A stretch of 43,700 nt of DNA from a virus. The stretch's first letter is position 1. The number at the start of each line of letters is the position of its first letter. Of this stretch, positions 7,151 to 38,344 are shown piece by piece. The position numbers were made by a program, and so were the translations under genes. Under the pieces are notes generated by a model. That model saw only the letters and a list, made by a program, of their open reading frames with translations. It was not told the DNA's origin and ran no database searches. The DNA lies in IMG/VR virus record IMGVR_UViG_3300045010_000158, positions 1 to 43,700 of that record; one strand, given 5' to 3'.

Positions 7151-9088
7151 TTATATTGATGATGTCAGATCGACCAGTTCGCACTTGTCTCCTGAACACG
7201 CCAATGTTTGTGTGCCTGCGGTGTTATCTTCCTTCTCGTACTTGGCAAGACCTGTCCAATCCACATTGGTAGGAATCTTGGCTGCAAGTGTCTCATGATC
7301 AGCAACACTACACTCTTGATACGGTGCTTGCTTGTATGTGTGATCGCTGTGTGGCAGGAAAGAGATTCCAGAAATCTTATCAAAGTGACGGTACACCCAC
7401 GCTCCCACTTCCAACCACTCATGCTCTCTCACACTAATGGTAACGCTGGGTTTGTGTTCGCACCAGTTCTCTTGATATATTAACCACATCTCTAGTTGCT
7501 CAATAGCAGTTAAATCATTACGATACACGCTCTTTGGAGATTTAATTGGAAAATAAAATACTGTGGTATGATCTGGCTTCATGTTGTCGGGTTCCCATGG
7601 GAATCCGAGGTCTTTCATAAACTTGCATAGTGGATCTTTGTTGTCTGCACGAACAGTACGAACATAGTACTCACTGTGGCGAGCATGAATACCTGATGCA
7701 GAATTTGTGAGTTGCGAGACAGTTCCGCTTGGCTTTACACAAGTAATAGATGCAGAGGGATTCACGCCGATCTTCTTCGCGTAGTCTGCGTTGGTCTTTA
7801 TTGCCAACAAACGGAGATCGTTTAGTATACGCTTTAATTCTTCATTTCCTGCATCGCCTCGTGTTAAAGGACAATCCATGATACCAGTCATAGACACACC
7901 AAGCAATGCTTCTTCTTCACAGTTTTTACGCCACTCACTCGACAGATAGCGGAAGTCCACAAGAGTAGACTGCCATGTGCCGAGAATGGTTGCTAGGCTA
8001 ACTTTGCGAGCAAGCGTATTAATGGTATCATTCTCGCGTATGATGACTTCGCTGAGATTACAGAATTCTCGGTCGCGCAGAATAATCTCGCTGCACGGAT
8101 TTGTTCCAAACTCATAATTAGGATCACGACGATCTCCCAATTTTGTAACAGTCTTACGAGTTGCTTCACGGTTAAATATTCCGCGCTCACCGCTTTTGCT
8201 CTTGTACAGAGACACCCATTCATCCATGAATGTTCCAATCTCTGGCTTCTCTTTATAGGCAACTGAATTGTTTGCAAGTGCGCGTTGTGGATTACTAATC
8301 CACCATTGCCCAACCTTGGCTTCGCGCATACGCTCGTCTGTAAGATTAGACAACGAAATAAGCGCAGAACGACGAACACCACCAACCACAACAATCTCCG
8401 CAATCTTACAAATTAAATCATGTGCTTCAATACTTGTAAGTTTGCGGCCTACTGCGGCCTTGAATGTATCCACAGTGAAATGGAACAAATCATCAAGTGG
8501 ACGAGGACCCGAAGCACGACCACCGAATGTTTTTAGTCTAGCGCCTCCTGGACGAATTTTAGTCAAATCCCACTTTGGAATCTGTCCACCTATCAATAGT
8601 GATATCAGTTCCTTGTATGCCTTTGCCCAACCAATCTTGCTGTCTTCAACAATAATAGTAGTATTACTATTAGTAAACTCTTCTGCAATGGTAGGTAATT
8701 TTTCAACATACTGCCGCTCAACAGAGAATCCAACACCCGTACCACACATCAAAATATACATGATTTCGTCAAACGCTCTCACACGATTAACAGCAATATA
8801 TGAACAATTGTAGCCAGCAACATGATCTCTGCGAAGGGCCTCTCCTGCTGTCATTAAACACCGCATAGAAGGCATGATATCAAGATTTAAAACTGCATCT
8901 TTTAATTCTTTACGAAGTTCTACTGGAATTTTGTAATTATAGTTCTCACGCAGATGCTCGTCAAAGAAAGTGAAATAGCGATCAACCGTTTCCTCCCACG
9001 TTTCGCGTCTTCCTTTTTCATCTATCCATCGAGAATATCGTGAAAGATGAATGAAATTCTGATATTGGGTAGGCAAAGACTTATTCAT
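7151..9088 (-). CDS. nrdJ: Class II (B12-dependent) ribonucleotide reductase
   Basis: Reduces ribonucleotides to deoxyribonucleotides with adenosylcobalamin as radical source. The key residues line up with the monomeric Lactobacillus leichmannii enzyme: redox cysteines C95 and C343, the thiyl-radical C332 in FGTNPCSEI with N330 and E334, and the C-terminal shuttle pair C631/C636 (ACSGDKCEL), spaced exactly as in the reference. At 645 residues it is about 90 shorter than the 739-residue reference, and I see no split or intein. The start has TTGGAG eight bases upstream. It sits with ThyX in a dNTP supply block. T4 itself uses class I NrdAB, so this is a replacement that needs no oxygen but depends on host cobalamin. 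Confidence 0.95.
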   Translation of the reverse strand: MNKSLPTQYQNFIHLSRYSRWIDEKGRRETWEETVDRYFTFFDEHLRENYNYKIPVELRKELKDAVLNLDIMPSMRCLMTAGEALRRDHVAGYNCSYIAVNRVRAFDEIMYILMCGTGVGFSVERQYVEKLPTIAEEFTNSNTTIIVEDSKIGWAKAYKELISLLIGGQIPKWDLTKIRPGGARLKTFGGRASGPRPLDDLFHFTVDTFKAAVGRKLTSIEAHDLICKIAEIVVVGGVRRSALISLSNLTDERMREAKVGQWWISNPQRALANNSVAYKEKPEIGTFMDEWVSLYKSKSGERGIFNREATRKTVTKLGDRRDPNYEFGTNPCSEIILRDREFCNLSEVIIRENDTINTLARKVSLATILGTWQSTLVDFRYLSSEWRKNCEEEALLGVSMTGIMDCPLTRGDAGNEELKRILNDLRLLAIKTNADYAKKIGVNPSASITCVKPSGTVSQLTNSASGIHARHSEYYVRTVRADNKDPLCKFMKDLGFPWEPDNMKPDHTTVFYFPIKSPKSVYRNDLTAIEQLEMWLIYQENWCEHKPSVTISVREHEWLEVGAWVYRHFDKISGISFLPHSDHTYKQAPYQECSVADHETLAAKIPTNVDWTGLAKYEKEDNTAGTQTLACSGDKCELVDLTSSI

Positions 9089-14971: not shown

Positions 14972-15234
14972 ATTATTTCTCCTGTTCTTTTGAGTTCTTG
15001 GATACTAAGTTTAAGTCGTATACCATCTTCGACTGCCTGGGTGAAGCGATCAATGTTGGGTGTATTAGACTTGGAATTCAAAAGTTGTTTTACCAATACT
15101 TGATTCGCTATTGCTGCACTCTCTAGAGTATTTAGAATGAAGTCATATGCATTTTGAGTTAAATTAATGCAGCGAGTAGGACGCTGGTTCCAATCTTTTG
15201 CCCATTCAAAATTTGAGTCGAGATTTGGATTCAT
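14968..15234 (-). CDS. Small hypothetical protein upstream of uvsX
   Basis: Eighty-eight residues, not recognised. The core is helical ([31 protein letters not shown]), followed by [25 protein letters not shown]. It is tightly packed: its ATG overlaps the methyltransferase stop (TAATG) and its stop overlaps the uvsX start (ATGA). This supports it as a real gene translated in series with both neighbours. Confidence 0.65.
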
Positions 15235-16451
15235 TACATCAAGTTCTCCAACGAAGCAGGCTTTGACTTCGTGACTTCTGTGAGTCTTCGGTCTGCAATC
15301 TTACAGTACTCTGCATTAAGATCAATACCAATAAACTTGCATCCTTCCAACAAAGCACCTTTGCCAGTAGAACCGCTACCCATGAATGGGTCTAAAACTG
15401 TTCCACCCTTGGCACAAACAAGGCGTACAAGATACTGCATGAGAACAGTTGGTTTTACAGTTGGGTGATCGTTTCCTTCTCCACGATCTGCCTTTGAAAT
15501 TTTGGCACAATAGAAGAAACGCGCAAGCGATCCGCCTGGATCATCCAACGCTTCCAAGGTTTCGTATCCTGTGTCTTCTCCATTGTTATTGAACATTCGT
15601 GCGCCAGCAGTACGATTACGAACCATCTTGCCTGGCTTGTCCACGGGAAACTCCGCAACCACTTCGGGACTTCCATCATGCACCAAATTTGCTGGCCATC
15701 TACCACCTGGCTTGTAGGTTGGAATCTCCTTCCCCACCAGAGCGGCAGCACCAAATGCACCCTTAACTGCACCTTCGCTGTTTTGCTGACGCTGTATCTT
15801 TGTGGGATCGTATTCATCTCCCATTGGAACTCGGCATCCATCAATGTTGATGCCTCCAGTTCCATACTTCTGTACATTCTCGGCTACAGTTCCTTCTAGT
15901 GGCTTTCGTGCCATGCAGATGGGTTCGCATGATGGTTTCAGCGCAGTTCCCCATCCCTCCCATTGTTTGGCTGCATCTGTTGCTGCCTTGGTTACTGGAA
16001 TGTCCGCGCCCTTCTGCACGATCCCAACACCACCACGCGCAAATCCACCGTAGCCTTGGTTGTCTTCCACCGTAACTCCACGGGAGAATCCAACAACCTC
16101 ACGATTGACGCCGGCCGCTTTGTCGATTGCCTTGCTTACATCAAGAGATTTGGGGAATGTCTTGCTGCTAACCCATGTCACAATGTCGCGCACCTCCCAT
16201 CCTGCGTCCTCAATGGCCGCAGCAAGTCGATGGTATGTGCGTGTTCCGCTAAAGGCAAGCAGATAAGCACCTGGCTTGGCTACCCGTAGTGCTTCTATCC
16301 AAAAGTCTTTGCCTGGAACTCCACGATCCCACTCGTTGCCCATGAACTCTAATCCATACGGAGGATCGGAGACAATAGCATCCACGCTGTTCGCGGGCAG
16401 TTTACGCATCTCATCCAAACAGTTACCGTTAATGATTTTGAATTCGCTCAT
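15234..16451 (-). CDS. DNA methyltransferase, N6-adenine/N4-cytosine type
   Basis: Transfers a methyl group from SAM to an exocyclic amino group in DNA. Motif IV is DPPYGLEFMGNEWD at residues 29-42. The SAM-binding motif DPFMGSGSTGKGALLEGCKFIGID is near the C-terminus, so the order is IV before I, as in beta-class enzymes. The roughly 300-residue middle contains a variable target-recognition-like region (KYGTGGINIDGCRVP, GGRWPANLVHDGSPEV) typical of phage-borne solitary methyltransferases. No cognate restriction gene is next to it, so it is probably an orphan used for protection or regulation. It overlaps the polymerase stop as ATGA. Confidence 0.9.
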   Translation of the reverse strand: MSEFKIINGNCLDEMRKLPANSVDAIVSDPPYGLEFMGNEWDRGVPGKDFWIEALRVAKPGAYLLAFSGTRTYHRLAAAIEDAGWEVRDIVTWVSSKTFPKSLDVSKAIDKAAGVNREVVGFSRGVTVEDNQGYGGFARGGVGIVQKGADIPVTKAATDAAKQWEGWGTALKPSCEPICMARKPLEGTVAENVQKYGTGGINIDGCRVPMGDEYDPTKIQRQQNSEGAVKGAFGAAALVGKEIPTYKPGGRWPANLVHDGSPEVVAEFPVDKPGKMVRNRTAGARMFNNNGEDTGYETLEALDDPGGSLARFFYCAKISKADRGEGNDHPTVKPTVLMQYLVRLVCAKGGTVLDPFMGSGSTGKGALLEGCKFIGIDLNAEYCKIADRRLTEVTKSKPASLENLM

Positions 16452-19979: not shown

Positions 19980-20993
19980 TCATATTGCATTGTCCTTTCC
20001 GCTCAAGTAATTGGTTATGTATCCCATAGTTTTCAGAGTATCCAGTACTTGCTTTAGTGGATTCATTTCAGAGAAATACTTTCTACGGACATCTAAAAGT
20101 TGTGGCAATTTCTGCGCGTAGATTTCACTTGCGTTTTGCTTTATATACAGAAGTTGCTTTCTTACTGCATCATGGTTATCAATATCATGAATTGCTATGT
20201 AACCGTACTCTTCTCCATATAAGTCAGCAATGTTACTGCATCCAAAGTATATTGGTACAGTTTCCTGTAAAATGCAATCGTGAAACTTCTCACTCACATA
20301 GTATTTTTCGTTTGAATTCTCTATTGCTAGAGAGAACTTGTAACGCTGTAAATTATCCCACTTAGATTGATACGAATTCTCTGTCCTTTCTGTTTTCCAT
20401 CCTCCATAAAAGTCAACACTATCTTGAAGATTTGGCAATAATGCGGTTATTAGATTGCATCTTCGTGCATACAGACAACTCGAAGGATATTTTCCATCGG
20501 CGGCCATATGTCCAGGCATCTCAGGATTTCTAGTAGAGACAAACGAACAAATATCATTTGTCTTGTACTTTTGAAAGTCTGTAGATCGTATGGTTTCATA
20601 TCTCCACGGTCCATCTCCAGTGCAAGCAGTTAGACCACCATAGTACATCTTACAAAACTGAGGAATGGCCTTTACTAGAGGCAAGTTTTCAATATTGTAA
20701 AGGCTAGGATCTAATGTCCAATACACAAGCGGCCATGTAATGTCTTTGCCTATATGTCTAGTATGAACCCCATCCCATGTTGGTTCGTTGACAAACAACA
20801 AAGAAGGTCGTTTATCATTAGGGGGTCTGCCTCTCATCCATCCATATTCTACTATAACATCCCAATCCGTGTTTTCTTCACCTGAATCTACCCATTCGAT
20901 TTCACTTAGATCCAACTCTTCAGTAAAAAATTGCTGAACGCTTCTGGATGGCCAGTACCCCCCCCACATATCTTTAATTCTACACTTATTCAC
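19980..20993 (-). CDS. GT10 (alpha-1,3-fucosyltransferase-like) glycosyltransferase
   Basis: The 337-residue enzyme carries the GT10 C-terminal motif at about residues 218-251: YKFSLAIENS, YYVSEKFHDC and VPIYFGCSNI, the GDP-fucose binding region of alpha-1,3/4-fucosyltransferases. CSFVSTRNP and VDFYGGW upstream also fit the family. There is no signal peptide or membrane segment, so it is cytoplasmic. The start is GTG at 20993, overlapping the upstream stop (GTGA). An ATG follows at codon 9 and runs straight into eight G residues, a possible slippage tract. The acceptor is unknown. Fucosylation of a phage or host glycan is the likely role. Confidence 0.85.
   Translation of the reverse strand: MNKCRIKDMWGGYWPSRSVQQFFTEELDLSEIEWVDSGEENTDWDVIVEYGWMRGRPPNDKRPSLLFVNEPTWDGVHTRHIGKDITWPLVYWTLDPSLYNIENLPLVKAIPQFCKMYYGGLTACTGDGPWRYETIRSTDFQKYKTNDICSFVSTRNPEMPGHMAADGKYPSSCLYARRCNLITALLPNLQDSVDFYGGWKTERTENSYQSKWDNLQRYKFSLAIENSNEKYYVSEKFHDCILQETVPIYFGCSNIADLYGEEYGYIAIHDIDNHDAVRKQLLYIKQNASEIYAQKLPQLLDVRRKYFSEMNPLKQVLDTLKTMGYITNYLSGKDNAI
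20958..20965 (-). repeat. Poly-G tract (8 G) near the GT10 start
   Basis: Eight consecutive G on the coding strand, at codons 10-12 of the GT10 gene, just after the internal ATG. Such a run is exceptional in this AT-rich sequence. Gain or loss of one G would shift the frame and silence the enzyme, the classic arrangement for phase-variable glycosyltransferases. Confidence 0.6.
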
Positions 20994-21748
20994 TGCGGAT
21001 CCATTCGATTTAAATCTATTAGTGTTGATTGATGTAAAGGTTTGTTTTCTTCAGTCATTCCCATACCAATGAAGGTATTTCTATCAAGCCTAGGAATATA
21101 AACATTCGTATTGGAAGACGGAAGACATCTATCGTACAGATACCAACTATTAGAAGTTTCTGCAAAGAAGTTTGATAAGAATGATTCATCTTGACCATAT
21201 TGTTCTGATATAGATCCAAACTCATGTAGATACTTATACATTCTATTCAAAAACAAACTCTTGTCTCCGCGTAATCCCAAAATACTACCATTTGGTATTT
21301 TTTGCGATGGGTGATCTCTAACTGAAAAGTACTGCTTGTCGGATTGCAACCAAAGTTTCATATACTGAACTTCTCTTTCGTTTAGTCTGCAATCTGCATC
21401 AAATGACCTTATTGGTTTATCTCCACATATAGAAGAGACAGCAAATCTCCAAAACATTCCAGACTTTACTATACATAGAGGAAAATTATCTTGATAACTC
21501 TCTACATTAACTATCGCTGCATTTTTATATAGTTTACAGGCATCACTAACATCATTTAGGTTATATGGATAGCAAAATGTTTTGGATACGCAAATCAAAA
21601 CATTCCAATCGGGAATAAGTTCTCTAATCAACTCAATTTGCCGTATAGCACCAATACCGTATATTGGCGTATATCCCCAAAGAGATATAGTCGCTAATCC
21701 CTCACAGTTGTCGATCACTTCACGAATGCAGTCTTTATCTTGCATCAT
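20990..21748 (-). CDS. Glycosyltransferase-like protein
   Basis: A 252-residue protein that looks like the uncharacterised glycosyltransferases that open with SLWG..P.Y..GAIR. Here it reads ISLWGYTPIYGIGAIRQIEL, then IPDWNVLICVS, RSFDADCRLNEREVQYMKLWLQ (with DAD as a probable metal-binding DxD) and FSVRDHPSQKIPNGSILGLRG. The RxxDxD plus RDHP pattern is characteristic of that group. I chose the tandem ATGs at 21748/21745 within the end of the upstream gene. A GTG at 21799 would add 17 residues without conserved sequence. Its stop overlaps the GT10 start. Confidence 0.72.
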   Translation of the reverse strand: MMQDKDCIREVIDNCEGLATISLWGYTPIYGIGAIRQIELIRELIPDWNVLICVSKTFCYPYNLNDVSDACKLYKNAAIVNVESYQDNFPLCIVKSGMFWRFAVSSICGDKPIRSFDADCRLNEREVQYMKLWLQSDKQYFSVRDHPSQKIPNGSILGLRGDKSLFLNRMYKYLHEFGSISEQYGQDESFLSNFFAETSNSWYLYDRCLPSSNTNVYIPRLDRNTFIGMGMTEENKPLHQSTLIDLNRMDPQ

Positions 21749-22499
21749 ACCATCCAGCCTGTATCCACTCTTGCGTGACCTCATCTGCATAGGGTACACC
21801 TAGCATACATTCGGATGAATGTTTTCTGATTCTGCATCCACTCGGCTCCCACTGATGACATAGTTTTCCAACTATAGGAAAACTTTCAACTCTAGGAGAA
21901 AAATCAGTCTCTCCCGGCCACGCACATACATATTTTTTGATACCATTTTTTCCTAGCATACAACCAATAGTAGTATCATCACACCAATTCAATCTAGCAC
22001 AAGAATAGTATACTGAATCAAAGAATTTTCTGAGATAGGATACCGATTTATACCCTTCAACAACGCGAACCTGATAATCTTTTTCAACCGAAGTACAGAA
22101 TCTAACACCATCAAATGATCCAAGCCCTGCAAATCCAATAGCAGAATTTGGATATTTAGTTGCTCTCAATTCCATATGCAACTTAATGAGATCGTGATGA
22201 TACACAAGATCATCGTCAACCGTAATAATGATTGCATCGGGATCGCTTTCTCTCTTAAGAGTAGGAACTAATTTAGTATGCGATCCCCAATCTCTATCGG
22301 CTTGATGAATTTGCAACTTTGGATACTTTGATGTCCATGATGGAATTTCGTAGTCTACACCTTCTAGATCAGAATGCTTTGGTATGTTTAGATGAAATTC
22401 AAAATCTTGATAACTCTGATTAATAATACATTCTACCATAGGTTCAATAAACCTAAATCTGCTCGGTAAAGTTGTAAATGAAACAATAACTCTATTCAT
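21735..22499 (-). CDS. Glycosyltransferase (GT-A-type, DDD motif)
   Basis: The 254-residue protein opens with VIVSFTTLPSRFRFIEPMVECIINQSYQDFEFHLNIP, which is the typical start of a group of bacterial and viral GT2-like transferases. DWGSHTKLVPTLKRE and a DDD at residues 95-97 (IITVDDDLVY) follow. The acceptor-side half includes WCDDTTIGCMLGKNGI and WPGETDFS. It is cytoplasmic with no membrane segment. The start overlaps the stop of the upstream two-domain gene (22496), so it is part of a tightly coupled run of four glycosyltransferase genes. Sugar and acceptor cannot be read from the sequence. Confidence 0.8.
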   Translation of the reverse strand: MNRVIVSFTTLPSRFRFIEPMVECIINQSYQDFEFHLNIPKHSDLEGVDYEIPSWTSKYPKLQIHQADRDWGSHTKLVPTLKRESDPDAIIITVDDDLVYHHDLIKLHMELRATKYPNSAIGFAGLGSFDGVRFCTSVEKDYQVRVVEGYKSVSYLRKFFDSVYYSCARLNWCDDTTIGCMLGKNGIKKYVCAWPGETDFSPRVESFPIVGKLCHQWEPSGCRIRKHSSECMLGVPYADEVTQEWIQAGWYDAR

Positions 22500-24127
22500 A
22501 AATTTTCCTTTCTTTGCTGACCATCATAATGAAATGCTCGATTATGATTAATGGGACTTGCCAATAGACATCCTGCTTTAATCTTACCATCGACGATCAT
22601 TTGATGCACATGACTCATCCATGTTTGCTCATAGGGATGCGCCCACTTGGTTTCCAAAAAAACTTTTCGGTTTCCCTGCTTGCTGAACATCACCGGCCAA
22701 TTGCAGTAATGAAACTCTCCTACTGCATATGAGAGTCCTTCCACGGAGCCTGTATAGTATATCTTTGTTCGATTGCATACTCCCTTAATCTGAGGTCCCG
22801 GGAAGTACTGCTCTTTCTTGTCAGACGGGAGATTATGCCATGACCAGTTCAGATGATTATCTCCAAAGAATTCGCTGAATGATAACTTCAGATAATCAAG
22901 AGACTCTTTTTCCATGATGCTCATGCAGTTATGAAATAATTTTGGATCATAACGAAGCAATCCGTTTTTACATGGCTCATCTTCTTTGCCGCATAGCATC
23001 ATGTCATCTTCAAAGAACACCATGTATTCGTGTTCCGAATCCTCAAACATCTCAGCACATAGTTGCCTGGCGCCACATATTCCTAGATTCTCTGGCTTTC
23101 GGATCTGTTGAATGGAATGTTTTTTACATAGCGCAGAGAACTCATCATCGGTCGATAAATCTGTAGAGTTGTTGATCACATACTTGGAAGAATACTTGAA
23201 CACAGAATCGTGATTGCGAGTGGAGTCTATCCAAAGTTTATACTGTGCGGGAAGATTAAAGCACACCGAGTATATGCCAAGTTTGCTAGTGTTTGTGCTT
23301 TCTCTTGGCTTGCTCAGTATCTTCTCTATCCACGGAGCAATCAATCCATTTGCTCCTATCATCTGATAGTTACACAGATCAGGGTGATTATATGTGAGCA
23401 AGGTGAAAATGCTCTCTTCAGTACCCATTAATCCCCCGCCCAAACTATCTGCAAGATATGCGTAGTAATGGGCGTTGAGTTTGTTTAAGGTTTCTTTGGT
23501 TCCTCCAAATAAACCACCCCTGGCAACTCGGGTTACTGTAACTCCCCGTGCAAACTCATTCATCTTAGACGAAACAAATCCGTGAATTTCGCCTTCAGAA
23601 TCATATGGAAAACACAAGAATAGCGCAGAATCTTCCATGTATTTGACTACTTCATTTTCAAACTTCTCACCAAGCAGCCCATCCCATACTGTATTGGTTA
23701 TGCCTCCGTCTAACCACAAAAAATACTTGGTGTTATGCGTGTTTGTTAACGATGCATCATTGAGCCAAAAGAACTTTGACATAACAAGCGGATTGTATAA
23801 CTCTAACCGTGCTTGTGTGCTTTCTTCTAGCCAAGATTTTTGCTTGAACCAAGCAGGATTAGTTCTAATAGTCTGAATCTGATCGTAGAATGGCATTTTT
23901 TTCAGATCGTCAGCACCAACAAATTTAATGGTTGTATTCAATCTATCCCTATGTTGCCAAACAAAGTCTTCCAGATCAGGACTAATAAAAAGCATCATTG
24001 GACATTTCACAGCAGTCAGAAGTTTAGCAAAACATTCTTTGTAGTGATCAAAAGGGCGAGAAAATGAAGTGCCTATCTCTGCCCTTCCAATATTAATAAG
24101 ACCGCTCACTATAGTCAATGATGACAT
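22496..24127 (-). CDS. Two-domain glycosyltransferase (HtrL/WlaTC + GT2-like)
   Basis: A 543-residue fusion. Residues 1 to about 280 resemble the WlaTC/HtrL_YibB family of LPS-type transferases (LTIVSGLINIGR, YNPLVMSKFFWLNDA, KYFLWLDGGIT, FARGVTVTRVARGGLFGGT). From about residue 290 a second glycosyltransferase-like domain begins (LGIYSVCFNLPAQYKLWIDS, ENLGICGARQLCAEMF, YMVFFEDDMMLCG, where EDD is the metal-binding site) and ends in a region rich in aromatics. Two catalytic domains in one chain suggest successive addition of two sugars. AAAGGAATAAATT precedes the ATG. It starts the second half of the glycosylation island. Confidence 0.78.
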   Translation of the reverse strand: MSSLTIVSGLINIGRAEIGTSFSRPFDHYKECFAKLLTAVKCPMMLFISPDLEDFVWQHRDRLNTTIKFVGADDLKKMPFYDQIQTIRTNPAWFKQKSWLEESTQARLELYNPLVMSKFFWLNDASLTNTHNTKYFLWLDGGITNTVWDGLLGEKFENEVVKYMEDSALFLCFPYDSEGEIHGFVSSKMNEFARGVTVTRVARGGLFGGTKETLNKLNAHYYAYLADSLGGGLMGTEESIFTLLTYNHPDLCNYQMIGANGLIAPWIEKILSKPRESTNTSKLGIYSVCFNLPAQYKLWIDSTRNHDSVFKYSSKYVINNSTDLSTDDEFSALCKKHSIQQIRKPENLGICGARQLCAEMFEDSEHEYMVFFEDDMMLCGKEDEPCKNGLLRYDPKLFHNCMSIMEKESLDYLKLSFSEFFGDNHLNWSWHNLPSDKKEQYFPGPQIKGVCNRTKIYYTGSVEGLSYAVGEFHYCNWPVMFSKQGNRKVFLETKWAHPYEQTWMSHVHQMIVDGKIKAGCLLASPINHNRAFHYDGQQRKENL

Positions 24128-24268
24128 AATTTATTCCTTTCATTCATCTACAGTATTTGGGTGTTTTTTACGAAATACATTAGAAAATTCTTTCATCCAA
24201 TGAAGCATATATCTGTCGCTACTGCCTGGATTTTCATCAGTTATTCAATGTATTCTAAACATATTAGT
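24128..24268. other. Intergenic region with a gene remnant
   Basis: On the minus strand, 24244-24140 is an open frame without a start, reading ITDENPGSSDRYMLHWMKEF then SNVFRKKHPNTVDE and a stop. It looks like the C-terminal tail of a lost protein, which I cannot identify. The rest is AT-rich and ends in the ribosome binding site of the two-domain transferase. No promoter of the window's common type is visible. Confidence 0.45.
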
Positions 24269-25597
24269 TTAATATCCGATATTAATTGTTTTCTCTATTC
24301 GGTGTAACCAACCTTTGCTCTTGCTATGAGGCCAAAGCACAAACTTGCTTGGAGCAGAATCCATCTTTGCAGTAAACACAACTGCAAGTTTACTGTGTCC
24401 TTCTCTTAATTCATCATTTGATTGGATTGATTTATCCCACATGATGCGCCTAGTGTCAGGTTTAAAGTCTTCTCTCCATAGAGTATCACCTGCATCATTG
24501 TGAATGGCGCACACTACAAAATCTAGATCAGTTGCTTGATGAAAGTGTTCAGGATTCCATGTCAACAAAGTAGCAAATTTACCGTCTCCATTCGGGAGTA
24601 TCTCTGCTCTTCTCTTGAAGTCTAACTTAGCGTATGCTTCATAGTCTGCCAAGGTTCTAACAGTTCCGATTCCATACTTCCCGAATACTATGTTTGGATC
24701 TGACTCCATATCAAACAACACTCTATTTCGATGATGGGATATATTGTTACGATCATACCAGTTTATACCATCAACTAAATTATTTTTGTTTGCATCTACA
24801 TGATCTACCCAATGTTTATGAATTCTATACTCACGGGTATATTCGTGCCAGATTACGGTTCTATGAGGAGAAAACAGATCATAACCATGCGTGAAACTAC
24901 GCATGGCTATAGAAATTTCTTCACCGTGAAAATAATAATTCGGATCATGCGGAACTTCTCGCACCATATCTCCAATAGAAAATGCAAAATGAGCCGAGAA
25001 AAATCTACAAGGTATAGCAGAAGTTAACTCATGAAAGCCTTTTCCATTTCCCGCCCAAAAATTACTACCATCAATGTAATGTGGTTTAAAAAACACACAG
25101 CCTTCGGGGGTAAACCGATCAAACTCCAAATACAAAGCATGATCCTTTTCCAACAAATTATCATGCTGTCTGCCTCGATGTTTTTCAGGATTAAAAGGAG
25201 TTGCATAAGCGGTAAGTATTGGTTTCTTGTGGCCTTTAGCCTGTAAATCTTTTATCCAACCAATTAAGGTTTCGTCCCAATCTTGAGCAAAGCGATGATG
25301 AGAGTCTAATTGTAGAGTATACTCTTCTCCATCATACAACTGTTCTTGAATAGAGTTGCGGGCCCAACAGGCTCCTTTGCTGTTATTCCACCGCACATCA
25401 ATAATCTTGAATCTCGGATCATTTTTAAATTCCAACAGTTCAGAATCCCACGAATCAGTAACTTCATGCTGCCAGCATATTCCAAAACGCAGACGATCAG
25501 GATACTTAGCCTTGTCTAAACAATCCTTAATGGTAGGAACTAGTTCAGGATCACGATACGCAGCAATCTGTATGAAAATACGATCATTATTTGGCAT
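24269..25597 (-). CDS. GlcNAc transferase-like glycosyltransferase (PF11397-type)
   Basis: The 442-residue protein matches the Glycosyltransferase (GlcNAc) family related to Skp1 hydroxyproline GlcNAc-transferase: IFIQIAAYRDPELVPTIKDCLDKAKYPDRLRFGICWQ at the start, GACWARNSIQEQLYDGEEYTLQLDSHHRF with a DSH in place of DxD, FWAGNGKGFHE and YFHGEEISIAMRSFTHGYDLFSP. After about residue 320 an extra C-terminal beta-rich domain of roughly 110 residues has no named match. The family transfers GlcNAc, but the phage acceptor is unknown. It overlaps the upstream DUF1599 gene by 11 bases. Confidence 0.85.
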   Translation of the reverse strand: MPNNDRIFIQIAAYRDPELVPTIKDCLDKAKYPDRLRFGICWQHEVTDSWDSELLEFKNDPRFKIIDVRWNNSKGACWARNSIQEQLYDGEEYTLQLDSHHRFAQDWDETLIGWIKDLQAKGHKKPILTAYATPFNPEKHRGRQHDNLLEKDHALYLEFDRFTPEGCVFFKPHYIDGSNFWAGNGKGFHELTSAIPCRFFSAHFAFSIGDMVREVPHDPNYYFHGEEISIAMRSFTHGYDLFSPHRTVIWHEYTREYRIHKHWVDHVDANKNNLVDGINWYDRNNISHHRNRVLFDMESDPNIVFGKYGIGTVRTLADYEAYAKLDFKRRAEILPNGDGKFATLLTWNPEHFHQATDLDFVVCAIHNDAGDTLWREDFKPDTRRIMWDKSIQSNDELREGHSKLAVVFTAKMDSAPSKFVLWPHSKSKGWLHRIEKTINIGY

Positions 25598-25919
25598 TAT
25601 ATACTCTCTCTTTCTGTTTCAAATAAGCACTCAATAGAACCATATAGTTGATTACATCAATACAAGTATCCATGAAACTCTCATTGGAAACATGAAGTTT
25701 GCCAGACTCTACGAATGAACTGAGTCTGCTCATCTTATCAGTAAGACGAACCAAGAACCCCTGCTCGGTGGAGCAGATGCCCATTGATTCTACTCTTGTA
25801 AAATTTGCGAAAGGTTCTTGTCCGTCATTGCCTGCGTAGTCTCTATTCTTCGCATCCATGAGGGTGCGACCAGACTCACAAATTTCTTTGTGCCATGCCA
25901 AAAGTTCATCACGAGTCAT
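25587..25919 (-). CDS. DUF1599 (Nmad1-like) protein
   Basis: A 110-residue protein with the DUF1599 pattern: LMDAKNRDYAGND, PFANFTRVESMGI, FLVRLTDKMSRLSSFVE and ESFMDTCIDVINYMVLL. As I recall, DUF1599 is also called nucleotide modification associated domain 1, because it occurs with enzymes of modified DNA bases. The helical, acidic layout resembles MazG-type nucleotide pyrophosphatases. It sits directly after dUTPase, so a housekeeping role on nucleotides is reasonable. GGAG lies upstream of the ATG. The exact substrate is unknown. Confidence 0.75.
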   Translation of the reverse strand: MTRDELLAWHKEICESGRTLMDAKNRDYAGNDGQEPFANFTRVESMGICSTEQGFLVRLTDKMSRLSSFVESGKLHVSNESFMDTCIDVINYMVLLSAYLKQKERVYNAK

Positions 25920-25925
25920 AATGTA

Positions 25926-26444
25926 TTACTCTCCTGTTGATCCGAATCCACCTGTACGATTTGTAGTTTGTTCTGGTCTATTATATATTTGTTGAATTGG
26001 AAATTGCACATTTTTTATTATTTCACCCTGACAAATTCTTTCGCCATGTTTCACAACAACAGAAGTATTGGATATGTTTCTAATCAACATAAATAACTCA
26101 TCAAAATAATCTGCGTCTATAATTCCTTCTCCATTTGGAACAATAAGTCCTCTTTTTAAGGCAACACTTGATCGCATATGAATTCGTAGTGAATAACCAC
26201 TTGGTATTTTAGCAATCAATCCAGTCGGAATGAGCATGGTGGTAGACGAAGGAATGATGAGTGCAGAGTTTGTAATAGCCGCTGAGTATGCACGGTTTTG
26301 CTCGTCCACACTCTTGATGGAGCAAAACTTTCCTTCGTTGTCCATCAAAAAGGCAGCGAGATCAAAACACGCCGAGTCTGCCGTAGCATACGATGGTATA
26401 GTGGCGTTGGGATAAAGTTTATGAAAGTGGAGCATTTGTAGCAT
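25926..26444 (-). CDS. dut: dUTPase
   Basis: Hydrolyses dUTP to dUMP, preventing uracil incorporation and feeding ThyX. All five trimeric-dUTPase motifs are visible in the 172 residues: ADSACFDLAAF (1), MRSSVALKRGL (2), EGIIDADYFDELFMLI (3), HGERICQGEI (4) and RTGGFGSTG (5). A roughly 20-residue insertion (GKFCSIKSVDEQNRAYSAAI) lies between motifs 1 and 2, making it slightly longer than usual. ATG at 26444 is used, and an ATG three codons later is also possible. It lies within the glycosylation island. Confidence 0.94.
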   Translation of the reverse strand: MLQMLHFHKLYPNATIPSYATADSACFDLAAFLMDNEGKFCSIKSVDEQNRAYSAAITNSALIIPSSTTMLIPTGLIAKIPSGYSLRIHMRSSVALKRGLIVPNGEGIIDADYFDELFMLIRNISNTSVVVKHGERICQGEIIKNVQFPIQQIYNRPEQTTNRTGGFGSTGE

Positions 26445-26466
26445 CTATTGGATGTTCAAAAAATGC

Positions 26467-27183
26467 TCAATGTGGGTTTGTGGCATTACTAATCCCCTTA
26501 AAGTTGTTTACTAGTTTCATTGCTCTCTTAACATGAAACTTACCATGAAATCCAAACGAGTTGTCTATGGTTGGATATTTACGGCAGACGGATTCTCTCG
26601 AAAACCTCGCTGCGGTATCTTCGTCAGGAAACTTTATTCCTGCGTTGATGGCCTTCGCGTAATTATGTACACATAGAAAGATGTCATCGTATTTATATGT
26701 TTCGTGGGGTTTGTTGTGTGGTGTACCATCATAATCATCAAAGGTGGTTGACCATTTCAAAAACTTTCTGCTTCTAAGACAGAATCCGCTATTTCCTACA
26801 TTGTTTGGAGAAGTTTTCGGTAACCACCATTGAGTCCCGTGAAACCACGGTGCGCCCACATAATCGTAATCAAGAAACCCATCTTCCCAAAGGTCTGGTT
26901 TGAGAATGAACCCGTCTGTATGGACATTTAGGCAATAATCGGATTGTATGATATTTGGAAGATCGCGCACACTCCACCTATTGTATCCATTATATGTCAT
27001 CTTCGGAACTCCCATGCGGGTAATCCCATCATACGATGCATTTACACCACCACCTGAAACATGAAGAACCGAATGAAACTCTATATCCTTCATACACCAT
27101 CGAAGAACTCTGTCCATTAACTCAGATTCGGTTCCTGTTCCATCTATTCCCACAAGAGTAACTTGGTGTAATTTTCGTTTCAT
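26467..27183 (-). CDS. DUF5672 glycosyltransferase-like protein
   Basis: The 238-residue protein has the DUF5672 signature: YNGYNRWSVRDLPNIIQSDYCLNVHTDGFI (the HTDGF segment carries the acidic residues), then WEDGFLDYDYVGAPWF, NVGNSGFCLRSRKFLKW and the C-terminal NSFGFHGKF. DUF5672 is treated as a GT-A-like glycosyltransferase family, and its sugar is not known. The start overlaps the GT25 stop as ATGA, so the two are coupled and likely act on the same glycan. Confidence 0.82.
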   Translation of the reverse strand: MKRKLHQVTLVGIDGTGTESELMDRVLRWCMKDIEFHSVLHVSGGGVNASYDGITRMGVPKMTYNGYNRWSVRDLPNIIQSDYCLNVHTDGFILKPDLWEDGFLDYDYVGAPWFHGTQWWLPKTSPNNVGNSGFCLRSRKFLKWSTTFDDYDGTPHNKPHETYKYDDIFLCVHNYAKAINAGIKFPDEDTAARFSRESVCRKYPTIDNSFGFHGKFHVKRAMKLVNNFKGISNATNPH

Positions 27184-27845
27184 ACTGTACTCTCAAATGG
27201 AATGGGAAGAACAATGTTTGGGACTAAAGGGCCTTCTGTTAACTTCTGCCATTTGTTGGCACTTTGTCTAGCATCCGACTGAACAAAACTAGGATACTTA
27301 CCAGCAATCACATTAAACTTAAATTGAGCAGCGGCCAACCCCATATCAAGCATCATGTTTTTTGCGATCACATACTTGGGCATCAGATCTATGGCATATT
27401 GTCTGTATCTCTCCGAAACATATAGAACAGCGTGAGCAGATAACATACCACAAATCCTATACCATCCATTTTTCAAATCCACAACAAGTTGTTTTTGGTT
27501 GGCCTTTGAGATACCCAAGTAAACAGCATCAGTATCATCGGGAATGTCTATAACCGAGGTATAGTGTTGTGTTACTAAAGCATCATCTTCAAGCACCAAT
27601 ACTGCACCAGATTCAACAGATGTTAGTGCATCGTAGTGTGCTTGGCTACATCCTAAAAAGTGCTTACCTACCATCTTAAGATGGTCTGCTGATAGATTAT
27701 TTGGTGGTTGGATTGCTTTTCCAACAATCCGTTGATGATTAGTAATCCCCAAGCGATCAAATTGCTCGATCATTTCTTTGGCATTAAGAGTGGCTTGATC
27801 TAGATTGATCCACCTAGTTGGTACATTACGAAGGTCAATTTTCAT
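27180..27845 (-). CDS. GT25-like glycosyltransferase
   Basis: A 221-residue GT25 (LPS or collagen galactosyltransferase-type) enzyme: VPTRWINLDQATLNAKEMIEQFDRLGI at the start, GKHFLGCSQAHYDALTSVESGAVLVLEDDALV with the EDD metal-binding triad, and a short C-terminal half ending in QSDARQSANKW. This order (GCxxSH-like, then EDD) is standard. It is the first gene of the glycosylation island, nine bases after the RegA stop, so it is probably co-transcribed with the clamp-loader operon. Confidence 0.82.
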   Translation of the reverse strand: MKIDLRNVPTRWINLDQATLNAKEMIEQFDRLGITNHQRIVGKAIQPPNNLSADHLKMVGKHFLGCSQAHYDALTSVESGAVLVLEDDALVTQHYTSVIDIPDDTDAVYLGISKANQKQLVVDLKNGWYRICGMLSAHAVLYVSERYRQYAIDLMPKYVIAKNMMLDMGLAAAQFKFNVIAGKYPSFVQSDARQSANKWQKLTEGPLVPNIVLPIPFESTV

Positions 27846-33729: not shown

Positions 33730-34974
33730 TTAATTTACAAGTTTAGGTTTAAATGTTTCCGACTTGATAGGTGTAGTAGTAGAAGAAGAATTTACAACAT
33801 TAACAAGGCTACGAGAAAGGGCAAGAACACCCAAATACGGATCCATATTGGCAGATGGACGACGATCTTCAATATAAATCAAGTGAGATGTATCATCTGA
33901 TACGGTTGTCGTAGGGAATTTCCCACACCACCCCGTAGTCACAGGGATAGTAGTAACGCACAAAGATGCGCTACGATCACCAAATCCCCAAGTAAATTTG
34001 TTAAAATCACTCGTTCCTTGAGTTTTTCCGACCAAACGAGTCTCGTTTCCACTACCATATGATGCCATATGCTCACTATGATCTTTTCCAATTGTTTCAC
34101 AAATATGTCTAGCATTATCTGCAAGTATCTGGCGATCATTCATGTAAATACGAATATTACAGGCGTTTCCATTCCATTCCGTGCCAGGAAAACTTTTTGG
34201 CTGGTAACTAATAACACATCTAGGCTTTTCTGAAGATTCTGCTGCTATTTCCAGCAGGTATCTTGTCAAGACTAATGTATCACAGGCAGTTAGAATATCA
34301 GTTTCTTTTGTGGAGTAAGACCATTGAGAAAGACAAATTCCTGCGGTTTGAGAAGTTAATTCAATTCCTGTTTCAAGACATATATTGGTAAACCGATCAA
34401 ATATTTCTCTTCCCCGCTGAAAATCGCCAGATCCACCATAATATCTTCCTTGAGGTCCTGGAAATATTACTTGAGTTTCACCCTTATCATCTTTTCCAGT
34501 TGGCCAACGATAAGGCTGTCGAGTATCTGGATCTATAAACAATATTTCTTGTTCAAATCCAATATGTACATTACTCATATCATTTTTACTGATAAACTTG
34601 TGAAGACTTGCTCGGGAATTGGTAGCGTGTGGAGTTCCATCTGCGGTTTGCACTTCACACAACACAATACCACGATTATTAGAAGGACCTAGAATGCGAA
34701 CAGGAACCAAGAAAAGATCTGCATTATCTACCGATGCTTGTTTGCAAGCAGAACCATCAAATCTTTGTATCTTTGGTGTTTCTCCTACAGAAAAATATCT
34801 TGCACTGCGAATTGTTCCGTCTCCAGCCAACCAAACATAATTCCAATGAGTTAAATTTGTTTTTGTTTCACCTACATGAGTTGGTGGTTTTTCGGAATTA
34901 GATGGATCATTACAGCACTTCATCTTTTTTCTACCACTAGTGTCTACGGGTTCATTCTTTTCATTCTTTGACAT
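33730..34974 (-). CDS. Glutamine synthetase-like protein (GSII type), probably non-catalytic
   Basis: A 414-residue homologue of eukaryotic-type (class II) glutamine synthetase. Fold landmarks are clear: YVWLAGDGTIRS, ADLFLVPVRIL, IGFEQEILF, FPGPQGRYYGG, WNGNACNIRIY, DRSASL and IEDRRPSANMDPY. By eye-alignment to the human enzyme, the first two metal glutamates (E141, E143) and the EDRRPSAN loop are kept. Other essential positions are changed: E196 to G212, E203 to S219, H253 to N273, the HETSN loop Glu to Gln/Gly near 319-320, and the RIP arginine to Cys. A roughly 35-residue hydrophilic N-terminal extension is present. Normal synthesis of glutamine is therefore unlikely, and a regulatory or altered function is more plausible. 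AAGGAG precedes the ATG. Confidence 0.85.
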   Translation of the reverse strand: MSKNEKNEPVDTSGRKKMKCCNDPSNSEKPPTHVGETKTNLTHWNYVWLAGDGTIRSARYFSVGETPKIQRFDGSACKQASVDNADLFLVPVRILGPSNNRGIVLCEVQTADGTPHATNSRASLHKFISKNDMSNVHIGFEQEILFIDPDTRQPYRWPTGKDDKGETQVIFPGPQGRYYGGSGDFQRGREIFDRFTNICLETGIELTSQTAGICLSQWSYSTKETDILTACDTLVLTRYLLEIAAESSEKPRCVISYQPKSFPGTEWNGNACNIRIYMNDRQILADNARHICETIGKDHSEHMASYGSGNETRLVGKTQGTSDFNKFTWGFGDRSASLCVTTIPVTTGWCGKFPTTTVSDDTSHLIYIEDRRPSANMDPYLGVLALSRSLVNVVNSSSTTTPIKSETFKPKLVN

Positions 34975-34985
34975 TCTAAATCTCC

Positions 34986-36611
34986 TTAATGGGGTTTATA
35001 AAACACATACACTGGTTCATACTTCATGTAATCACCTTTCACTTTACAAAAATTCTTACACATGGGTAATCCTGTCTCTTCATCAAGACGATTCTGCCCA
35101 GGCATAGATTCCATAGCCATCTTCACTTTATATTTATACACAAGTCCAAATTCTTCAAGAATTTTCTGTGAATCTTTTTCTAGAGGAATATAATCTCCTC
35201 CAATCTGAATATCGGCAATGTTCCACAGCAAGTAACGATCAGGCTTCAAGAACTCTGCACAAGTCTTTAGCGTTGGGCGAAGAAATCCATCGCGCCAATT
35301 TTTATAAGAAGAACCGTATTTCTTGTATGATTGATTCTTGTCTTTTGAATAGGCTTCACGGTTAAAATAAGGAGGACTAGTAAAGATCATGTCAATCTTA
35401 CCTTTATACTTCTTGAAATTCGGATCTTTGCCTATTTCTTCAGAGCCTAATCTGTAGATTTCATAAGTATTGGTTTCGCTGAAGAATGGATTGCCTCGAT
35501 AAGTCTTTGTGTTGTAGAAGTCTGCAACATCAGCATAGCGAGGACGCTCCTCTCCTGTTTCTTCATCAATATAATACAGTTCAGGATTTGGATCAGTTCC
35601 AATGTAATGAATCTTACGATCATCGCGCACACTCATGGCGCCTAGAATACGACCACCCCATCCTGATGACGGATCGTAAATCACAAGCGGAGTCTTTTGA
35701 TCTTTAACATGATCGGTAAATCGTTCGTACAAATACTTGGCAGTCATGGGCGGGAAATTGTGTGCCACCTGAATGTATCCGATACGGAAAGCAGCAAACC
35801 CTTTTGGAAAAACTCGCTCGCCCTTCTTGTAGATGCGAATGGTGTATACCCGATCATCAGGCATAGCACTCACATCAAAAGTAGAGAAATGCCGATACTG
35901 CAATACTCCCCCATCCTTCAGTTGTTGTACTTGCTCTCGCGTAAGATTCAAAATGTCAGACTGATTCAGTTGGAAATATCCTGTATTGTTTCCTTCACGA
36001 ACCTTCACCTGTTCAAGCATGAAGTCGTAGCCTTTGAAGATTTCTTTGTTGGTTTGGAACGCATTGATCCAAGACAAAGCATCAGGCACAGACACAAGAG
36101 CAGGCTTTGGATTGTTACGCAAGCACGACAAGGCGTGCATATAGAGTGAGTCTCTACGGAAGTGCCGCATTGATCCCTTCACCATACGATCTAAAAACCT
36201 ATCTTCAGCAAACAATTCATAGATGGAGTATCCATCGTCCTTTTCGCTGTAGTTGATGCGAGTCTTCATCATGGTCGGGAACCATTGATCCACTTCAGAA
36301 CCAAGTCTTGCCTTGTTCAATATCACATCTTTACCAATATCTTCTAGTTCATCATCAAATTCCAACGACTTCACAGGATACTCAGCCATCTTGTTCCACT
36401 CTTCGATAATGTCTTCTTCAATCTTTCCGATGCGCGGAGGACACCCCTTGTTGTCCCAAATATCGACAACGGTTTTACGCATATTAATAACCCACTTGCG
36501 GAACTTGCCTTCGTCCATCTCTAGCAGTTCTTCAAAAGTCACATTAACTGGATGGGTAAGAAGGTGAGTGTTCTTCTCAAAAAAAGTTTTGTGTGCTTGT
36601 AGAGTTTCCAT
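34986..36611 (-). CDS. Large DNA methyltransferase-like protein (SPPY type)
   Basis: 541 residues. The C-terminal 230 contain a methyltransferase core with LVIYDPSSGWGGRILGAM (motif I), IGTDPNPELY, then MIFTSPPYFNREAYS (motif IV, SPPY as in N4-cytosine and some N6-adenine enzymes) and YLLWNIADIQIGGDYIPL. Motif I precedes IV. The N-terminal 300 residues are an extra region (SMRHFRRDSLYMHALSCLRNNP, KGFAAFRIGYIQVAHNFPPMTAKYLYERF) that may recognise the target. There is no restriction partner. It has no strong ribosome binding site, but a small coding remnant with one lies immediately upstream. Confidence 0.82.
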   Translation of the reverse strand: METLQAHKTFFEKNTHLLTHPVNVTFEELLEMDEGKFRKWVINMRKTVVDIWDNKGCPPRIGKIEEDIIEEWNKMAEYPVKSLEFDDELEDIGKDVILNKARLGSEVDQWFPTMMKTRINYSEKDDGYSIYELFAEDRFLDRMVKGSMRHFRRDSLYMHALSCLRNNPKPALVSVPDALSWINAFQTNKEIFKGYDFMLEQVKVREGNNTGYFQLNQSDILNLTREQVQQLKDGGVLQYRHFSTFDVSAMPDDRVYTIRIYKKGERVFPKGFAAFRIGYIQVAHNFPPMTAKYLYERFTDHVKDQKTPLVIYDPSSGWGGRILGAMSVRDDRKIHYIGTDPNPELYYIDEETGEERPRYADVADFYNTKTYRGNPFFSETNTYEIYRLGSEEIGKDPNFKKYKGKIDMIFTSPPYFNREAYSKDKNQSYKKYGSSYKNWRDGFLRPTLKTCAEFLKPDRYLLWNIADIQIGGDYIPLEKDSQKILEEFGLVYKYKVKMAMESMPGQNRLDEETGLPMCKNFCKVKGDYMKYEPVYVFYKPH

Positions 36612-36752: not shown

Positions 36753-37682
36753 TCAAGTTGTAGAATTCATTATGCAATAAACCTCAGTTTTACTTAGTCT
36801 GCGTCCAACCACCCAAAAGCAAGTGCGCTTGTTCATATCAAGATTCTCACGCATCCACTTGTGGGCCTTTGCTTCATACAGATCGTCAAGAAGTGTACCA
36901 TCTGCTGTCTTTTCTGCAAGAGGTTTTCCATACACAGTATTTAGACAATGTAATTCGTAGTCTGGCAGAGGATATCCCGCCATCGGGTTCACCCACTTGT
37001 TAATGTTTTCCGTGCGCTTCGGTCCAACACACAATCCGATCACTTTGCCTACACTTATTGAGTACCGATATATGCCTCTTATAATGGCAGCAAAGTGAAC
37101 TCCACTACCCACAGGCACCACAAGTTGATCCAAATTAGTTGGTAGGTTACCTACCTGATGCTCAATGCTATCAAGAATTGCGTCTTCTCTGTTTTCGATA
37201 TTATGGGTAAAGACTGCATCGTATAGTTTTTCGGCTTCGGCAATCTCGCGCATTCGAGCAAGCACAGGCCCGTGCATTCCTGTTCCACAAACATTACGAA
37301 CATCTGCTCCCAACCATTTTGCATATCGCATCATATGATGATTATCAATAGTTTCTGGCGAACTTCCACCAACACAAATCACACAAGGGATTTGTAAATC
37401 TTTGCACACTCGGGCAACAATCGCTCCCGTTGTGGAATGCACCTGCGTATGAGTTATCACTCCATTGAAATGTTTTTTTAAACCATCTCTCATGGAATAA
37501 AGAAGAGTAAAAGCCTGTCTTACTTTGCCCCCGCTCACATCTCCAATACCATACGGAGTGTACATATCATCTCGCTTGTACCACACTCCATCAATGAGTT
37601 GGACAGGTGTTCTGTTTAGAACATGAGCAGGAAACTCTTTAAAAACTCCATGCTCTTGTTGCATATCAACTTCGATGTTCAT
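36753..37682 (-). CDS. Fold-type II PLP-dependent enzyme (ACC deaminase/D-cysteine desulfhydrase-like)
   Basis: 309 residues. WYKRDDMYTPYGIGDVSGGKVRQ includes the probable Schiff-base lysine K53 in the ACC-deaminase-type GG(N)K-R context. HTQVHSTTGAIVARVCKDLQIPCVICVGG corresponds to the substrate and cofactor loop, and LVVPVGSGVHFAAIIRG is the Gly-rich phosphate-binding loop. Such enzymes act on amino acids (deamination, beta-elimination or replacement). The start overlaps the methyltransferase stop as ATGA, so the two proteins are made together. That suggests a joint role, perhaps in building or attaching an amino-acid-derived group, but the substrate is unknown. Confidence 0.8.
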   Translation of the reverse strand: MNIEVDMQQEHGVFKEFPAHVLNRTPVQLIDGVWYKRDDMYTPYGIGDVSGGKVRQAFTLLYSMRDGLKKHFNGVITHTQVHSTTGAIVARVCKDLQIPCVICVGGSSPETIDNHHMMRYAKWLGADVRNVCGTGMHGPVLARMREIAEAEKLYDAVFTHNIENREDAILDSIEHQVGNLPTNLDQLVVPVGSGVHFAAIIRGIYRYSISVGKVIGLCVGPKRTENINKWVNPMAGYPLPDYELHCLNTVYGKPLAEKTADGTLLDDLYEAKAHKWMRENLDMNKRTCFWVVGRRLSKTEVYCIMNSTT

Positions 37683-38344
37683 AATGGTAGAGTTGTTTTG
37701 GAATGATTAAAGGTCGGATCGTAGAACTTCTCTTCTAATTCACACCCCCACCATCTGCGTCCAATAGTTTTGGCGGCAAGCAGAACAGGCGCTACTCCAG
37801 CAAAAGGATCAACAACCAAATCGCCTGGTTTGGTGAGATTCTCAATCACATACTTGCAGAAGTCTTGTGACCATACAGATTGATTCAGCACTTTCTCTTG
37901 CTGATCCACATAGATGTCGCGTAACCAATCTCCCTTGCGATGAATCACTCCTTTTTTTGTGTACACAAGCATATGCTGAAAAGTAAAATAGTACATATCC
38001 CGTTTACCAACTTCATTTCTCACAACTATTTTATAGTCTTTTAGAGATAGTCCTTCTTTTTCTAAACATTTTGAATACCACATATGATTTGACATGATAA
38101 AACCATTTACCCGTCGATCTGTTTGACACACCACAACAAATCCAGTAGGCTTTACAATGCGAGCAAACTCTTGCATAATCTTTTGCTGAAACTGCCTATA
38201 CGAATCGGTTTCATCCCTACCAAACGGAGTCTGAGACAGATCGGGGCAGGAAGTAAATACCAAGTCTACAGTCTCGGAAGGAATAATAGGCAGATAGTCG
38301 AAGGCATCTCCCAACACATACGAATTCTCTTTGAAGTTTGTCAT
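37679..38344 (-). CDS. DNA methyltransferase-like protein with SCPD in place of (D/N/S)PPY
   Basis: 221 residues arranged like a beta-class DNA methyltransferase: LGDAFDYLPIIPSETVDLVFTSCPDL at the position of motif IV (SCPD at 32-35), FARIVKPTGFVVVCQTD, then GDLVVDPFAGVAPVLLAAKTIGRRWWGCELEE as motif I (DPFAG 179-183). The aromatic residue that normally stacks on the flipped base, and the first proline, are replaced. SAM binding looks intact, but the normal exocyclic-amine chemistry is doubtful. It could act on a different position or substrate. The start overlaps gene 46 and the end overlaps the PLP gene, both as ATGA. Confidence 0.78.
   Translation of the reverse strand: MTNFKENSYVLGDAFDYLPIIPSETVDLVFTSCPDLSQTPFGRDETDSYRQFQQKIMQEFARIVKPTGFVVVCQTDRRVNGFIMSNHMWYSKCLEKEGLSLKDYKIVVRNEVGKRDMYYFTFQHMLVYTKKGVIHRKGDWLRDIYVDQQEKVLNQSVWSQDFCKYVIENLTKPGDLVVDPFAGVAPVLLAAKTIGRRWWGCELEEKFYDPTFNHSKTTLPL

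Follow-up and report, generated by a model that had tools for sequence, protein, structure and literature searches.

What do a fold-II PLP enzyme and a methyltransferase homologue without its base-stacking aromatic residue do side by side in a virus? Both are encoded on the minus strand of the window, by which we mean the whole 43.7-kb IMG/VR virus record analysed here, and T4-like replication genes occupy the same strand. An earlier note had singled out the two genes as a candidate pair for making or attaching an amino-acid-derived group. Comparison with related phages points to an undescribed way of adding such a group to viral DNA, carried by a PLP–methyltransferase cassette in viruses of lakes and the sea. 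The features concerned are as follows.

36753–37682, minus strand: PLP enzyme of fold type II (PALP; ACC-deaminase / D-cysteine-desulfhydrase fold), 309 aa, assigned with PF00291, phrog_3650, and AlphaFold
37524–37526, minus strand: PLP-binding lysine K53 in GGKVRQ, from alignments
37679–38344, minus strand: MTscpd, a homologue of beta-order N6/N4 DNA methyltransferases with SxPD replacing SPPY, 221 aa, assigned with PF01555 and AlphaFold
38240–38251, minus strand: SCPD at the motif IV position of MTscpd, family motif S[P/C/L/M]PD[I/L]SQ, from the alignment
37796–37810, minus strand: DPFAG, the SAM-binding motif I of MTscpd (D179, P180, F181, and A182 invariant in alignment A1)
37679–37682, minus strand: ATGA, the 4-base stop/start overlap of MTscpd and the PLP gene
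38341–38344, minus strand: ATGA, the 4-base overlap between the end of the SbcC/gp46-like gene and the start of MTscpd
34986–36611, minus strand: gamma-order methyltransferase, 541 aa, with motif I (DPSSGWGGR) followed by motif IV (TSPPYF), assigned with PF01555
35364–35381, minus strand: TSPPYF, motif IV of the 541-aa methyltransferase (T411, S412, P413, P414, Y415, and F416 invariant in alignment A3)
33730–34974, minus strand: type II glutamine-synthetase homologue, the next gene downstream of the cassette (profile against PDB glutamine synthetases, E 8e-77)

By profile, fold, and lysine, the product of 36753–37682 is a fold-II PLP (PALP) enzyme. It matches PF00291 with 51.3 bits (cut-off 35) and phrog_3650 with E 2e-32, and its AlphaFold model (pLDDT 87.8) has D-cysteine desulfhydrase and ACC deaminase as the best PDB matches. 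K53 is invariant in alignment A2, is kept in 23 of 24 diverse phage homologues, and aligns with the lysine of GNKIRK in the ACC-deaminase homologue 1j0a. The residues lining the substrate, the GSG loop and YEAK among them, are conserved in the family as well. The protein scores far under the NCBIfam equivalog cut-offs (TIGR01275, 35.1 versus 289.4 bits; NF010646, 26.4 versus 550).

MTscpd is matched by the N6_N4_Mtase profile (PF01555) with 63.1 bits (cut-off 26.7). AlphaFold (pLDDT 86.8) gives it the fold of a beta-class DNA methyltransferase; the best PDB match is an N4-cytosine methyltransferase, and the closest folds are 8s9m, 2zie, and CcrM. The SAM site DPFAG is normal, as the earlier note had stated. 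Motif IV, read in 18 aligned homologues (A1) and then in a larger set of distinct loci, is S[P/C/L/M]PD[I/L]SQ in 48 of 50 family members; the other two do not show the region. The earlier note was right that SCPD is present in the window and that the aromatic is lost, Asp standing in its place in these 48 members, but the cysteine to which it gave prominence is a local variant. P, L, or M is found at this position in most members (SPPD is the reading in 13 loci), indicating that the cysteine is no family trait and ruling it out as a catalytic nucleophile. The constant oddity is the Asp where (D/N/S)PPY enzymes carry the base-stacking aromatic, and with it MTscpd departs from the catalytic pattern (D/N/S)PP(Y/F/W). 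In a HMMER profile alignment with solved N4-cytosine methyltransferases, about 11 residues are missing directly after the motif. Invariance of the SAM motifs and of many polar residues argues for MTscpd being an active enzyme rather than a dead copy.

The neighbourhoods of the two genes were compared in 56 distinct IMG/VR loci, collected with PLP or MTscpd queries after removal of identical ones. Both genes are present in 45 loci. They lie on one strand in all 45, their frames overlap in 38, and the order is PLP–MTscpd in 27 loci and MTscpd–PLP in the other 18. MTscpd is missing from the surroundings of five distinct PLP loci, and four or five of the unpaired loci are contigs that end beside the gene; the true PLP-only loci are L071–L078, and L117 has MTscpd only, also truly so. 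As the searches started from the two proteins and returned loci that are related among themselves, the counts are evidence of linkage but do not amount to a random sample. The pairing is conserved beyond chance, in agreement with the coupling proposed in the earlier note, which had also described both overlaps of MTscpd correctly, with the PLP gene and with the SbcC/gp46 reading frame.

The setting of the pair varies by lineage. SbcC and RNase H genes flank it in the window's group, and in other lineages it adjoins clamp loader and polymerase genes. A scan of 84,980 genomes for a bacterial home of the cassette returned only two short MAG contigs, which look viral. The deposited names of the cassette genes are 'hypothetical', 'ACC deaminase', or 'DNA methylase'. 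Beside the cassettes, no restriction endonuclease was recognised, and PADLOC gave generic methyltransferase models only.

Taking the two genes as the unit does not hold as well as their coupling: the more constant partner of the PLP gene is the TSPPYF methyltransferase encoded at 34986–36611. This 541-aa protein matches PF01555 with 29.7 bits (cut-off 26.7). Residues D313, G317, G319, and R321 precede TSPPYF (residues 411–416), and all are invariant in A3; motif I is placed ahead of motif IV, indicating the gamma order. The gene adjoins the pair in most relatives, and all 12 of the longer contigs searched carry a copy, including two (126 and 136 kb) whose PLP gene is without a true MTscpd. It is apparently the third and most constant member of the cassette.

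The glutamine-synthetase homologue at 33730–34974 is eukaryote-like, with altered GPYYC and DGSST motifs. It is present in L002–L017, the window's lineage, and absent from more distant cassettes. A role as the core amide ligase was rejected, as the protein is a type II homologue confined to the window's lineage; it is a possible accessory. Elsewhere in the window, 19980–27845 contains several glycosyltransferase-like genes, with a clear PF11397 GlcNAc transferase at 24269–25597 (E 1e-67), and may be a glycosylation island. At 15234–16451 (minus strand), a further N6/N4 DNA methyltransferase with an ordinary SDPPYG motif (96.5 bits) adjoins the DNA polymerase gene.

Additional genes accompany the pair in some relatives. 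In marine relatives (L018 4895–6001, L024 4824–6023, L079, L086, L111, and L128), the end of a gene for an Asp/Asn-hydroxylase-like 2-oxoglutarate iron oxygenase (PF05118, HxD...H intact) overlaps the PLP start; it is a possible extra tailoring enzyme. In L024 (6897–7400), L025, L027, and L028, a gene of 167–179 aa lies between PLP and MTscpd; it looks 2-oxoglutarate oxygenase-like by eye and has no Pfam match. In one aquatic group, a weak ParB-like match (phrog_723) and an HD-domain protein are located just upstream of the MTscpd–PLP pair (L055 950–1813 and L058 3086–3826). In the PLP-only contigs L072 and L077, the PLP gene adjoins a trypsin-like protease and a MoxR-like AAA ATPase, both recognised by eye, and a 541-type methyltransferase is encoded elsewhere on the same contigs.

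Distant relatives of the PLP enzyme are embedded in methyltransferases. One polypeptide (gp70 of Pseudanabaena phage Pam4 and its counterparts in L089, L093, and L095) contains, in this order, a ParB-like region, motif I (DPFAGGSVRG), a whole PLP domain, and motif IV (CPPYxDLEVYS). The PLP lysine and the methyltransferase motifs are invariant in the fused proteins, and PALP and N6_N4_Mtase score above the Pfam cut-offs in fused examples, as does ParB_N in one. A search with the fused family, together with inspection of phage records, gave 36 fused loci, 25 with adjacent separate reading frames, 27 with the methyltransferase only, and 1 with PLP only. The PLP domain is mostly inserted between motifs I and IV and is C-terminal in a few proteins. 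Cultured carriers of fused or adjacent genes are the Erythrobacter phages vB_EliS_R6L (gp1) and ZS04 (gp7), Pam4 (gp70), the Mycobacterium phages Vincenzo and AlanGrant (gp1 and gp2), Microcystis phage Mae-JY30, and Staphylococcus phage Alsa_1, in which the methyltransferase and PLP genes stand immediately ahead of SbcD.

A quick tree of 81 methyltransferase cores requires at least 22 changes among the fused, adjacent, and absent states, and at least 14 between PLP presence and absence. The PLP-linked and PLP-less cores are alike, with no group-specific column to separate them, so that both may use one donor group, perhaps simply methyl. MTscpd is restricted to aquatic T4-like lineages and does not occur in the fused systems, and its role is therefore the weakest part of the explanation given below.

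Three loci with related genes deserve mention. In L095, a second ParB-methyltransferase-like reading frame (7252–8301) directly follows the fused gene; it seems to be without motifs I and IV and may be a degenerate partner subunit. A DGQHR/ParB-like reading frame (L091 5086–5964) directly precedes a PLP gene near which no methyltransferase was recognised. In Staphylococcus phage Quidividi (L060 5950–8802), four tandem genes are annotated as methyltransferases, and the annotated neighbours include no PLP gene.

No report of PLP–methyltransferase–ParB fusions was found in the open-access literature; an earlier notice in closed-access papers is possible (Iyer 2013; Lee 2018, 2022). In the MetaGPA paper no connection with these domains is mentioned. 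In the R6L genome publication, gp1 is described as a CcrM-like DNA modification methylase, and PLP goes unmentioned in the portion of the text available.

The PLP family is also tied to phage DNA hypermodification, in line with the earlier note, which had pointed to PLP enzymes in known thymine hypermodification systems of phages. The profile of window-type PLP enzymes (A2) matches the Ackermannviridae PLP protein with 130 bits, Vincenzo gp2 with 98, and Montesquieu gp41 with 57; it also matches a protein in ViI, and the best solved cellular enzyme in the PDB reaches 27 bits. ORF169 of Dickeya phage PP35, the Ackermannviridae homologue, appears as the PLP enzyme in a published list of 5-hmdU thymidine-modification genes (PMC6336734), and ViI DNA contains 5-(2-aminoethoxy)methyl-dU (PMC6449724). 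In Glutamicibacter phage Montesquieu, the PLP gene lies between an annotated alpha-glutamyl/putrescinyl-thymine pyrophosphorylase (the depositor's name, with no Pfam match) and two P-loop nucleotide kinases, with a pyrimidine hydroxymethylase near. Three other PLP families (PF00282, PF02784, and PF00155) have no match in PP35, Ag3, and A8-29, so that by elimination the fold-II protein is likely the PLP enzyme of these phages. The partner sets are mutually exclusive: PP35, Ag3, and A8-29 have the 5-hmdU kinase PF18747 and no gamma methyltransferase, and the complete genomes of Pam4, R6L, Vincenzo, Alsa_1, and Mae-JY30 have the gamma methyltransferase and no PF18747 kinase.

In the ViI-type pathway, a kinase and a transferase attach an amino acid, which is decarboxylated afterwards; in ViI-like phages a PLP enzyme is reported to do this to DNA-linked serine (Lee et al. 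2018, 2022). We take the cassette to be, with a probability of roughly 0.6, a post-replicative DNA base-hypermodification module in which a SAM-dependent methyltransferase homologue stands in for the 5-hmdU route and an amino-acid group is tailored, perhaps by decarboxylation, by the PLP enzyme. The methyltransferase with a complete SPPY or CPPY motif (34986–36611 in the window; the ParB-methyltransferase in the fused systems) would flip the target base and attach a SAM-derived group. The PLP enzyme (36753–37682) would next act on the alpha-amino-acid moiety of that base. MTscpd (37679–38344) would serve in a later step or as a partner subunit, on a non-planar, probably cationic group; with Asp at the place where a planar base would otherwise stack, the enzyme would be suited to a cationic amine. 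This step is the least certain of the model.

The likeliest chemistry would be transfer of the 3-amino-3-carboxypropyl (acp) group of SAM, instead of methyl, to the exocyclic amino group of A or C. By analogy with ViI-like phages, the PLP enzyme would then decarboxylate acp to give an aminopropyl base. Three points make acp transfer and decarboxylation the simplest model: PLP enzymes act on amino acids, their constant partner here is a homologue of SAM-dependent DNA methyltransferases, often in one chain with them, and the related PLP enzyme is part of a pathway in which an amino acid on DNA is trimmed. Coupling, fusion, intact SAM and PLP motifs, homology to the listed thymidine-modification gene, and exclusive partner sets are observed; the chemistry of the cassette, its substrate included, is inferred from them, and its parts differ in strength. 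DNA is probably the substrate. Placement of the amino-acid group by the methyltransferase is conceivable at somewhat less than even odds, and acp as the group attached is a tentative proposal. The full scheme, in which acp is transferred to a DNA base and decarboxylated to an aminopropyl base, often within one polypeptide, with the SxPD homologue acting on the new amine, is doubtful in its entirety. The benefit would probably be phage DNA that resists host nucleases or evades host defences.

The main chemical rival of the acp model is beta-replacement, in which the PLP enzyme would turn serine, or serine in an activated form, into an aminoacrylate. Addition of the exocyclic amine of a base that the methyltransferase domain has flipped out would yield an N-(2-amino-2-carboxyethyl) base, and methylation would be a separate or a second step. 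Reactions of this type with N nucleophiles are classic for fold-II PLP enzymes. The location of the PLP domain inside the methyltransferase, beside the motif that binds the target base, would suit it, as would the conserved substrate-lining residues (GSG loop and YEAK). However, attachment in the ViI-type pathway falls to the kinase and transferase, leaving that branch with no need of beta-replacement, and we consider this chemistry unlikely. A lower probability still is given to ordinary DNA methylation (6mA or 4mC) accompanied by a metabolic PLP enzyme of the amino-acid/SAM cycle, the two being linked by SAM supply or by-product removal. The methyltransferase core is indeed the same with and without PLP, and the PLP fold is like that of catabolic deaminases and desulfhydrases, but supply alone explains poorly why fusion has occurred repeatedly within the methyltransferase domain and why the family is found in 5-hmdU gene sets.

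The cassette could also modify something other than DNA, namely RNA, protein, or a small molecule. The lost aromatic of MTscpd is consistent with such a target, and so is the Asp/Asn-hydroxylase-like oxygenase beside the cassette in marine relatives; the ParB and N6/N4 DNA-methyltransferase domains of the fused proteins and the position of the cassette among DNA replication and repair genes speak against it and make it improbable. Known 5-hmdU thymidine hypermodification, with kinase and transferase genes elsewhere in the genome, would account for the PLP homology to ViI-type phages, and the window contains a weak DUF1599 match. However, this match is below the cut-off (18.8 versus 25 bits), and the ThyX that the earlier note called unusual looks ordinary (Thy1, E 6e-48), so that neither of these genes, cited there in support, is good evidence. 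None of 12 related contigs of up to 136 kb yielded the PF18747 kinase (the window's own genome is incomplete). The transferase ADDT (PF18724) was not found above cut-off in these contigs or in the complete genomes of Pam4 and R6L, with PP35 positive as the control; one related contig has a sub-cut-off PF18724 match containing 4 stops. Together with the lack of the kinase in complete Pam4, R6L, Vincenzo, Alsa_1, and Mae-JY30, these results indicate that the cassette probably does not follow the known thymine route, which we rejected as very improbable.

If the proposed hypermodification module is real, it would be a second front end for phage DNA hypermodification, in which SAM-dependent methyltransferase homologues feed the PLP tailoring family of the 5-hmdU route. 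Unknown modified bases would be predicted both in cultured phages, infecting mycobacteria, cyanobacteria, Erythrobacter, and staphylococci, and in the phages of lakes and oceans that have yet to be cultured, and the presence of 'ACC deaminase' or 'DNA methylase' among phage annotations would be explained. The fused proteins might then provide a single-polypeptide tool for putting reactive groups on DNA. The hypothesis is directly testable on isolates.

The cassette resembles several known systems in part. ACC deaminase and D-cysteine desulfhydrase have the fold and the PLP lysine in common with the cassette PLP enzyme, which differs in its sub-cut-off NCBIfam scores, the YEAK signature of the phage family, and its partner genes. 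Orphan phage N6/N4 DNA methyltransferases, with or without a ParB domain, have the PF01555 domain and the SPPY/CPPY and DPFAG motifs in common with the cassettes, and the PLP-less relatives have the same core; the cassettes differ in the PLP enzyme, which is inserted, fused, or adjacent, and, in aquatic T4-like lineages, in a second homologue with SxPD. The 5-hmdU systems of Ackermannviridae (ViI, Ag3, and PP35) and Montesquieu share the PLP family with the cassette. They attach the group through 5-hmdU DNA kinases and amino-acid:DNA transferases, or genes so annotated, and have no gamma methyltransferase, whereas the cassette has methyltransferase homologues and no kinase. A parallel in concept is the 5-carboxymethylcytosine system CmoA/CmoX/CmoY of Synechococcus phage S-B43, in which a SAM-derived non-methyl group serves as the handle for amino-acid hypermodification (PMC12783734). 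Like the proposed cassette, it relies on a phage DNA methyltransferase homologue that uses a SAM-derived group other than methyl. However, neither CmoA nor a C5-methyltransferase homologue was noticed among the cassette genes, and CmoX is a C5-cytosine methyltransferase homologue that works with carboxy-SAM from CmoA and an asparagine-synthetase-like ligase, whereas the cassette combines N6/N4-type methyltransferases with a PLP enzyme.
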